From Nocardioidaceae bacterium (lineage in GTDB: Bacteria; Actinomycetota; Actinomycetes; Propionibacteriales; Nocardioidaceae), in contig JAURVT010000006.1 of assembly GCA_030655315.1 (NCBI GenBank), forward strand, positions 1 through 64,000: a stretch of 64,000 nt of DNA. Direction: 5' to 3'. A program made the position numbers and the translations under genes. This document shows, piece after piece, positions 46,794 through 49,619 of this stretch; the stretch's first letter is position 1; every line of letters starts with the position of its first letter. Below the pieces are notes generated by a model that saw nothing but the letters and a program-made list of their open reading frames with translations, was not told the DNA's origin and ran no database searches.

Positions 46794-48050
46794 GTGCCCG
46801 CTGCCGAGTCGGCGTCCGGACCGCACCGGGGCCGTCGCCAGGTCCGTCAGTCCGAGAAGCTGCACGACGTCCTCTACGACATCCGCGGCCCGGTGAACGC
46901 CCGCGCCCAGCAGATGGAGGCCGCGGGGCACCACGTGCTGAAGCTCAACATCGGCAACCCGCAGACGTTCGGGTTCGAGGCGCCCGACTCGATCGTGGCC
47001 GACATGATCGCCGCGCTGCCCGTCTCGCAGGGCTACTCCGACGCACGGGGCATCGTCTCGGCCCGACGCGCGGTCGTCCAGCGGTACGAGCTCGAGGAGG
47101 GCTTCCCGCACGTCGACGTCGACGACGTGTGGCTCGGCAACGGCGTCTCCGAGCTGATCCAGATCGCCCTGCAGGCGCTCCTGGACGACGGCGACGAGGT
47201 GCTCATCCCGTCGCCGGACTACCCGCTGTGGACCGCGGCCACCAAGCTCGCCGGCGGTGTCCCGCGGCACTACCGGTGCGACGAGTCGTCTGGCTGGGAG
47301 CCCGACCTCGAGCACCTCGCGTCGCAGGTCACGGACCGCACCCGCGCGATCGTCGTGATCAACCCGAACAACCCCACCGGCGCGGTCTACTCCGCCGAGG
47401 TCCTCGACGGCGTCGCCGAGGTCGCGCGCCGGCACGACCTCGTGCTGATGAGCGACGAGATCTACGACCGCGTGCTCTACGACGACGCGGTGCACGTGCC
47501 GACGGCGACGCGCGCCCCCGACCTGCTCACGCTCACCTTCAGCGGTCTGTCCAAGGCCTACCGGGTGTGCGGCTACCGCGCCGGCTGGGTCGTCGTCAGC
47601 GACCCCGGCGGCGTCGCGCAGGACTACGAGCACGGCATCAACCTGCTCGCCTCGATGCGCCTGTGCCCCAACGTCCCGGCGCAGCACGCGATCCAGGTGG
47701 CCCTCGGCGGTCACCAGTCGATCCACGACCTCGTCCTTCCCGGCGGACGCCTGCGCGAGCAGCGTGACGCCGCCGTCACCGCGCTCCGCGCCATCCCCGG
47801 CGTCACCGTGGCCGAGCCCCGCGGCGCCCTCTACGTCTTCCCCCGCCTCGACCCCGACGTCTACCCCGTCCGCGACGACGAGCAGCTCGCCCTCGACCTC
47901 CTCCTGGCCCAGCGCATCCTGCTCACCCAGGGCACCGGCTTCAACTGGCCCCACCCCGACCACCTCCGCATCGTCACCCTCCCCCGTGCCGCCGAGCTCA
48001 CCGACGCCATCGCCCGGCTCGGGGTGTTCCTGTCCACGTACGCGCAGTGA
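46794..48050 (+). CDS. PLP-dependent aminotransferase, AlaA-like
   Basis: 418-aa fold-type I class I transaminase. Seen: LKLNIGNPQTFGFEAP near 45, DYPLWTAATKLAGG, INPNNPTGAVYS with the Asn/Pro loop, SDEIYDRVLYD (PLP-binding Asp/Tyr) and Lys254 in SGLSKAYRVCGYRAGW as the PLP Schiff-base residue. AlaA-type enzymes make alanine from pyruvate and glutamate. GTG start supported by GAGGAGAGG 8 nt upstream. Monocistronic. Confidence 0.92.
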   Translation: MPAAESASGPHRGRRQVRQSEKLHDVLYDIRGPVNARAQQMEAAGHHVLKLNIGNPQTFGFEAPDSIVADMIAALPVSQGYSDARGIVSARRAVVQRYELEEGFPHVDVDDVWLGNGVSELIQIALQALLDDGDEVLIPSPDYPLWTAATKLAGGVPRHYRCDESSGWEPDLEHLASQVTDRTRAIVVINPNNPTGAVYSAEVLDGVAEVARRHDLVLMSDEIYDRVLYDDAVHVPTATRAPDLLTLTFSGLSKAYRVCGYRAGWVVVSDPGGVAQDYEHGINLLASMRLCPNVPAQHAIQVALGGHQSIHDLVLPGGRLREQRDAAVTALRAIPGVTVAEPRGALYVFPRLDPDVYPVRDDEQLALDLLLAQRILLTQGTGFNWPHPDHLRIVTLPRAAELTDAIARLGVFLSTYAQ

Positions 48051-48142
48051 GGGTGGGTGACGGTGGGGTGTGGTCGGCCGGCTCTCGGGGGTGCGGGGGC
48101 CCACGATCCAGCGCACCCGCTGGTAGGGGAGCTCGCGGGTCG

Positions 48143-48427
48143 GAAGTGCGCAGCTACGGACGGGGCGGCGGGGGGGCGGGCCTGGTGGCCGGGCTCGGGT
48201 CTCGGACCGTGAGACACCCCCGCCACTGACCACGGCAAAGAGGCGCTTCCCACGGTGAATTCACCACGGCAAGCACCCTTTTGCCACGGTCGGCGTGACG
48301 GCTGGTGCTCGTGGGGCTCGCCGGTCCACCCACCGAGACGCACCCGGCCGCGACGCCCGGGCCGCGACCACCCCGTCCGTAGCCGCCTGTCGGCGCGCAC
48401 CCCGACGGCGCCGCACCCGGACCCGTC
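48143..48427. repeat. ~284-bp tandem unit, copy 1
   Basis: Direct repeat with copy 2 at a period of 316-317 bp, high identity with scattered substitutions and a 1-nt shift. Within it, 16-bp inverted repeats at 48153-48168 and 48368-48383 (15/16 match) bound a 231-bp core that holds a central GGTGAATTCACC palindrome (48255-48266). Confidence 0.9.
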
Positions 48428-48459
48428 AGCGCCTCCGCCACCCGGGGTGCTCGCGCGAC

Positions 48460-48743
48460 GAAGTGCGCAGCTACGGACGGGGCGGCAGGAGGCGGGCACC
48501 GCCGACGGGCCCGCGTCTCGGACCGTGAGACACCCCCGCCGCTGACCACGGCAAAGAGGCGCTTCGCACGGTGAATTCACCGCGGCAAGCACCCGTTTGC
48601 CACGGTCGGCGTGACGGCTGGTGCTCGTGGGGCTGGCCGGTCCACCCACCGAGACGCACCCGGCCGCGTCGCCCGGGCCGCGACCGCCCCGTCCGTAGCC
48701 GCCTGTCGGCGCGCACCCCGACGGCGCCGCACCCGAACCCGTC
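48460..48743. repeat. ~284-bp tandem unit, copy 2
   Basis: Second copy, 32 nt after copy 1. Its terminal inverted repeats at 48470-48485 and 48684-48699 match perfectly (16/16), and the central palindrome extends to CGGTGAATTCACCG. No transposase frame inside, so it would be a non-autonomous element if mobile. Confidence 0.9.
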
Positions 48744-48803
48744 TGGTCGCTGACGCTCGAGGTGCTGCGCGAGCAGGTGCTCGCGGCCCGCTGACGTCCG
48801 GAC

Positions 48804-49619
48804 TCACCCCTCGACGACCGGCCACCCGATCTCGGTGACGGGAGGGACGTCGGGGTCGTCGAGCGCGGAGACCAGGTAGCGCTCGCGCACCGGTCCCGGG
48901 GCGCCGATGCCACGGGTGGCGACGTGCGCGCCCAGGGCCCCGTAGGCACGGTCGATCTCGGCGTCCGGGCCGGCGTGCACGGTCACGGCGAGGTCGACCC
49001 CCGGAAGCACGTCAGCCACCACGCGCCCGATCGGCGCCACGTCGCCGGCCGCCTCGACGGGGCGGAACACCGTCACCTCACCGTGCTCGTCGCGGAACAG
49101 CTCGTCCGACCACAGGCCGCCGCGCGGCCCGAGCACGACCAGCCCGGACGCCGCGACCGCCGCGTCGAGCTCGGCGAACGCCTCGAGGTACCAGTCCGAG
49201 AGTTCCGCGAGATCGATCCGGTCGGCGATCGCCAGCACCGGCGTCGCCGGCACGCGGACGTGCTCGACCCGCACCGTCGGAACCGGCGCGACCAGGAGCG
49301 ACCGCAGCGACGCGACGGCCTCCTGCGTGCGGGCGAGACGGTTCTCCATCTCGTCCAGGTGCGCCGCGAGCAGGGCGTCGCGGGCCGCGCCGTCGGGCGC
49401 GCCGAGGACCTCCCTGATCCGCTCCACCGGCATCTCCAGCGCGCGGTAGCGCCGGATGGCCTGGGCGGTCGGCAGCTGCGCGACGTCGTAGCGCCGGTAG
49501 CCGGTGGTCGGGTCGACGTCGACCGGCTCGAGCACGCCCACCCGGTGGTAGTACCGCAGCGTCTTGGCGCTGAGGTGGGTCATACGCGAGAACTCGCCGA
49601 TGCTCAGCCTCGTCGCCAC
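48804..49619 (-). CDS. MerR-family regulator with GyrI-like effector domain
   Basis: 271 aa. Winged HTH at 5-75 (LSIGEFSRMTHLSAKTLRYYHRVGVL; core KTLRYYHRVG), coiled helix about 85-120, then a GyrI-like small-molecule domain from about 125 to the end (VEHVRVPATPVLAI). Multidrug-sensing BltR/TipA style. The GTG start is 48 nt from the divergent NTF2-like gene, whose promoter carries a MerR-type operator. Confidence 0.88.
   Translation of the reverse strand: MATRLSIGEFSRMTHLSAKTLRYYHRVGVLEPVDVDPTTGYRRYDVAQLPTAQAIRRYRALEMPVERIREVLGAPDGAARDALLAAHLDEMENRLARTQEAVASLRSLLVAPVPTVRVEHVRVPATPVLAIADRIDLAELSDWYLEAFAELDAAVAASGLVVLGPRGGLWSDELFRDEHGEVTVFRPVEAAGDVAPIGRVVADVLPGVDLAVTVHAGPDAEIDRAYGALGAHVATRGIGAPGPVRERYLVSALDDPDVPPVTEIGWPVVEG

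Follow-up and report, generated by a model that had tools for sequence, protein, structure and literature searches.

Results

The stretch of DNA analysed here (the window, 64,000 nucleotides) is part of a 4.18-Mb actinobacterial draft genome of 57 contigs. Repeat finding confirms two tandem repeats at 48143-48458 and 48460-48772 with the 316-bp period reported in the first-pass annotation and an identity of 91-93%. The matching inverted termini and the central EcoRI palindrome noted there are likewise present in both copies. The EcoRI site is peculiar to these two copies, most other members of the family reading GTATTC, CATATTC or GGATCC-like sequences at this position. The surroundings had been described as a gene desert; in fact both copies sit in a 753-bp gap with ordinary convergent genes on either side, an aminotransferase gene ending at 48050 and a MerR/GyrI-like gene with its 3' end at 48804. 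The assigned unit length of ~284 bp captured the repeat but not its extent, as the palindrome reaches past 284 bp into the linker. The features of the locus are as follows.

46794..48050, + strand: flanking gene, class I/II aminotransferase (context)
48143..48458, + strand: copy 1, long palindromic unit together with its right outer arm/linker (repeat finding, DNA comparison)
48143..48169, + strand: copy 1, left terminal inverted repeat, GAAGTGCGCAGCTACGGACGGGG... (sequence, repeat finding, family alignment)
48199..48215, + strand: copy 1, left 17-bp motif GTCTCGGACCGTGAGAC (sequence; conserved in family alignment)
48224..48294, + strand: copy 1, palindromic 71-bp core, four decamers, GAATTC in the centre at 48258-48263 (about 48228-48291 by repeat finding)
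48323..48339, - strand: copy 1, right 17-bp motif GGTCCACCCACCGAGAC (sequence; conserved in family alignment)
48371..48386, - strand: copy 1, right terminal inverted repeat CCCCGTCCGTAGCCGC (sequence, repeat finding)
48460..48772, + strand: copy 2, long palindromic unit (91% identity to copy 1 over 316 bp)
48460..48486, + strand: copy 2, left terminal inverted repeat (sequence, repeat finding)
48515..48531, + strand: copy 2, left 17-bp motif (sequence; family alignment)
48540..48610, + strand: copy 2, 71-bp core palindrome with GAATTC at 48574-48579 (about 48540-48611 by repeat finding)
48639..48655, - strand: copy 2, right 17-bp motif (sequence; family alignment)
48684..48702, - strand: copy 2, right terminal inverted repeat (95% complementary pair)
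48804..49619, - strand: flanking convergent gene, MerR regulator with GyrI-like domain (context)

According to repeat finding, the two copies share 93% identity across a 256-nt block and 94% in their 33-nt left ends, and the inverted ends match at 77% over 44 nt and, in copy 2, at 95% over 19 nt. Comparison of each left arm with its own right arm gives scores of 14-16 for the core (shuffles 3-4) and 31.5-36 for the outer arms (shuffles about 17.5), and the MFE of copy 1 corresponds to z = -4.3. Open reading frames within the repeat match no protein family, in line with the first-pass annotation. An Rfam search of the two-copy region returned noise, with no family at gathering score. The same region contains no consensus promoter, and not one U-tract terminator (a GC hairpin followed by a T run) is found in 47900-48950.

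DNA and covariance-model searches of the draft genome, together with alignment of the stretches surrounding the matches, identify about 32 long-type copies in 19 intergenic regions. The case considered in the first-pass annotation, that no other copies exist anywhere, is thus clearly contradicted. The copies are organised in nine tandem arrays of 2-4 units and ten single copies. Four units are found on contig C9, three each on C19 and C43, and two each on C45, C27, C37, C54, C55 and C6, the two units on C6 being divergent members among the 32. Array periods range from 316 to 370 bp. Identity is 85-96% inside one array and on average 79% between places, suggesting duplication or conversion at the locus. 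The middle unit of the C54 array has lost its interior and kept its ends; this mini-unit of ~95 bp (G000:C54:38200-38293; L043:4180-4300) consists of the two terminal arms alone and represents an internal-deletion derivative. Its presence within an array and the higher within-array identity are both signs of local duplication. DNA searches of plasmids and phages gave no match to the element, and the long DNA query yielded only short, chance-like matches in relatives.

The long element is a non-coding quasi-palindrome of about 280-320 bp built of inverted blocks. From the outside inwards, each arm comprises an outer linker block, which joins the palindrome in several long copies, and a terminal block, often followed by a GCACCCGACC block; the 17-bp motif (GTCTC-N7-GAGAC) and half of the core complete the arm. 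The terminal block reads GTCCTCGCTGCGC[AC]CTTC in most long copies, with a ..CGTCCGTAG.. variant in the subfamily of the window. The 71-bp core, the most conserved section of the element, harbours four TTYRCCRYGG-like decamers in inverted pairs. A role of the decamer as a DNA-uptake signal was rejected: it occurs 12 times in the window, and 7 of these occurrences lie within the two units.

The core model also reveals a second tier of elements in the same genome, i.e. stand-alone palindromes of 75-100 bp such as TTTACCACGTGAACGTGGTAAA-centre-TTTACCACGTTCACGTGGTAAA. These occupy 16 gaps of 83-211 bp, mostly directly 3' of stop codons. Across 245 genomes of the family, core matches at E <= 0.01 are present in 40, the own genome counted. 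Four relatives were read, and each genome carries a homogeneous, genus-specific version of its own (TTTACCATGTAAACATGGTAAA in G007, GCTTCATCACGGGATGCAGGCGAAG in G106, CATCACGGTATGTCG in G193 and CTTCCCACGACGAAG in G056). The long arms are confidently found in the own genome only, where matches reach 62 bits; eight other genomes of the 245 gave single matches of 22-25 bits. A core match in G007 (G007:C1:3649115; L064 / L193) apparently lies inside a long palindrome of its own, GGCTGGGGAAAGACGCGG...CCGCGTCTTTCCCAGCC, whose ends differ from those of the window element.

The elements have a preferred position relative to genes. Element-bearing gaps in the own genome are convergent in 21 cases, same-direction in 13 and divergent in 1, compared to 6, 52 and 42, respectively, for gaps of 60 bp or more that lack an element within these stretches (Fisher p = 1.5e-10); the stretches were selected around elements, so that this baseline is local and not genome-wide. 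In relatives, 16 of 39 elements are found in convergent gaps and 1 in a divergent gap, and the nearest gene 3' end lies at a median of 29.5 bp. For the long copies the median distance from the core to the nearest gene 3' end is 161 bp, indicating that they fill gaps instead of hugging stop codons. Within same-direction gaps, 7 of 9 long copies lie closer to the 3' end (not significant, p 0.18), as do 3 of 4 short ones and 16 of 22 in the relatives, no group being strongly significant alone. Overall, the elements show the location typical of REPs, downstream of genes in convergent and same-direction gaps and hardly ever in divergent ones.

All long copies fold more stably than dinucleotide shuffles on both strands, with a mean z of about -6 (a rough value from 12 shuffles each). 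In the relative G007 the stems show compensatory changes (GGATG/CATCC, GTACC/GGTAC, GGACC/GGTCC, GCACG/CGTGC), and 142 of 170 stem positions pair compared to 118 +/- 4.5 with shuffled partners. The long element shows weak arm-to-arm covariation, with results that vary from one subfamily to the next; the core gives a modest signal (77.5% paired cells versus 75.8% after shuffling). Selection on hairpins is thus supported in G007, while for the element of the window it is only suggested. The arm-versus-arm comparison does not support a single long hairpin under strict selection. The structured non-coding RNA locus, one of two options left open in the first-pass annotation, survives in part: 3'-end placement and the compensatory changes in one relative fit a transcribed hairpin, but the elements do not constitute a single ncRNA locus.

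The junction between the aminotransferase and MerR genes is absent from every named relative examined by synteny via the aminotransferase, so that these genomes show no empty site for the element of the window. The nearest named relatives of this enzyme include Paraoerskovia marina and Sediminihabitans luteus (both Cellulomonadaceae) at 73% identity, and Aeromicrobium-labelled records score equally; the host is thus placed in the Cellulomonadaceae only tentatively. In Cellulomonas humilata (L175:5216-5385) the gap after the same aminotransferase contains repeats of inverted GAGATCGGCAGCTGCCG-type motifs that bear no relation to the element of the window.

A comparison of occupied and empty sites was made for the element of G106 that lies at an FKBP junction, using 29 congeners. 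The gap at this junction measures 1-35 bp in 13 of the 29, compared to 118 bp with the element in G106; the remaining congeners show no synteny, a longer gap, or inserts and hairpins that are not related to the element. Unrelated hairpins or palindromes are present at the junction in other congeners of G106 (L251, L252, L254). Hairpins may thus be gained at this junction with particular frequency. Occupied junctions show little overlap between genera, and this low overlap and the near-empty junctions are consistent with gain of the element at new places.

By eye, no target-site duplication is seen at single copies or at the G106 elements, the ends of the long unit not being sharply defined. 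Insertion sequences often hide at contig ends; nowhere in the 57-contig draft do paired long-element ends enclose a gene. The Y1/RAYT family (PF01797) has no member in the own genome and is found in 2 of the 245 family genomes, and mobilisation by a RAYT was rejected on these grounds. The sole Y1 transposase of G009 (IS200/IS605 type; L275:3251-3670, G009:C33) is located 1.5 kb from one of the few core matches in that genome; it belongs to an ordinary IS200/IS605 copy without matching ends, and its link to the core is probably coincidence. Thus, the non-autonomous mobile element, the other option of the first-pass annotation, is supported in spirit by the dispersal over 19 intergenic regions and the near-empty site for a related element of a sister genus, but neither a transposase nor a target-site duplication was found.

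Discussion

The element in the window belongs to a dispersed multicopy family of multi-block palindromes with tandem arrays, a preference for convergent positions and the 3' ends of genes, a core common to the bacterial family and a near-empty site for the element of a relative. We favour, with a probability of roughly 0.55, that the locus holds, in two tandem copies, a large, composite and non-autonomous repeat resembling a REP dimer or BIME, which is dispersed and locally amplified and probably acts as a 3'-end hairpin. The earlier interpretation of the tandem repeats is thereby partly supported. In the proposed scenario the palindromic element would spread non-autonomously to intergenic sites 3' of genes, at which its presence would be tolerated or beneficial. 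After insertion, element and linker might be duplicated locally by recombination or replication slippage, giving rise to arrays with periods of 316-370 bp. Transcribed from either convergent gene, the copies would form very stable hairpins at the 3' ends of both transcripts, and a likely benefit would thus be that transcript ends are formed in both directions, or 3' ends protected, with no need of a U-tract. Transcription of the element and an effect on termination or RNA stability are predicted here from sequence.

A broader reading is possible, albeit doubtful. The actinobacterial family of the host (probably Cellulomonadaceae) may possess its own superfamily of palindromic 3'-end elements that preserve the hairpin-centre-hairpin plan and change in sequence from genus to genus. 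These would be spread by a non-Y1/RAYT enzyme and would be represented here by a giant, multi-block form that amplifies in tandem.

The favoured reading has to be weighed against a classical MITE, i.e. a deletion derivative of an insertion sequence with a DDE transposase, moved in trans through 16-20-bp terminal repeats. The element does have terminal inverted repeats, and their conservation (GTCCTCGCTGCGCNCTTC), the dispersed copies and the internal-deletion derivative with retained ends agree with such an origin. Yet we consider it unlikely, as no paired ends enclose a gene anywhere in the 57 contigs, no target duplication is seen, and the core is common to much shorter palindromes with different ends.

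The core might instead act at the DNA level, its array of inverted decamers being bound by a nucleoid or topology protein (e.g. gyrase, known from the BIMEs of E. coli) in the convergent gaps at which positive supercoiling accumulates. Besides the convergent placement, this could account for the four conserved TTYRCCRYGG decamers per core and for a conservation of core sequence that exceeds the conservation of pairs. However, both the compensatory hairpin changes in G007 and the sequence differences between genera favour shape over a fixed binding sequence and make such a site rather improbable.

We give little credence to resident, non-mobile bidirectional terminators homogenised within the genome by gene conversion. 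The 3'-end and convergent placement, the strong folding and the higher identity within arrays would be expected of them, but not the near-empty sites in congeners of G106, the small overlap of occupied junctions between genera or the 19 unrelated positions of a lineage-specific long form. That chance or neutral tandem duplication produced the feature from GC-rich intergenic DNA, conceivable as long as only the two copies in the window are considered, is refuted by about 30 further copies elsewhere and by their conserved blocks, and has next to no standing.

Among known systems, the BIMEs of E. coli are mosaics of alternately oriented palindromic motifs that form tandem arrays and are located at 3' ends. 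The element described here differs from them in its motifs and in a far larger repeat unit. ERIC, RUP and Correia-type MITE-like palindromes are mid-sized, intergenic, non-coding repeats with many copies; judged by description, the present element is set apart from these by its direct tandem arrays and by the lack of a visible target duplication.

REP dimers and REPINs, associated with a RAYT (TnpA-REP), consist of inverted hairpin pairs around a centre, occur in tens to hundreds of copies and show genome-specific sequences and compensatory changes (PMC3116915, PMC2817692). Their tandem clusters carry flanking DNA and contain up to four units (PMC3116915). Similarly, the element of the window is an inverted pair with many intergenic copies and tandem clusters that include the linker. 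Its unit of 280-320 bp, however, contrasts with about 70-110 bp for REP dimers, and in contrast to REPINs it has several conserved blocks per arm and resides in a genome without a Y1/RAYT gene. Because the RAYT link was probed and not found, we do not class the element as a RAYT-REP.

GTAG- and CGTC-tagged REPs are units of 20-40 bp with the tag at one end, located downstream of coding regions in convergent and same-direction gaps; the CGTC type has no dedicated transposase (PMC3733652). The family described here shares this placement downstream of genes in convergent and same-direction gaps. Unlike in tagged REPs, no GTAG or CGTC tag is seen by inspection beside the hairpins, although such strings do occur in the long element, within its terminal block. 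The text of the tagged-REP survey mentions neither Actinobacteria nor Cellulomonas (PMC3733652), nor is Cellulomonas mentioned in a second REP survey. We found no description of actinobacterial REP/MITE palindromes like these in the open-access library searched, which is no proof of novelty. The spread of REP families that lack a dedicated transposase is named as an open question for CGTC REPs (PMC3733652). The bacterial family studied here has frequent palindromic repeats that vary from genus to genus, while Y1 transposases are almost absent. One junction is occupied in G106 and nearly empty in many of its congeners, which opens the spreading mechanism and any role at 3' ends to direct testing. 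At 280-320 bp, the composite far exceeds the size of the REP units in the REP literature cited, and on the best reading it represents an outsized form of a known type of bacterial repeat that would work like a REP dimer or BIME.
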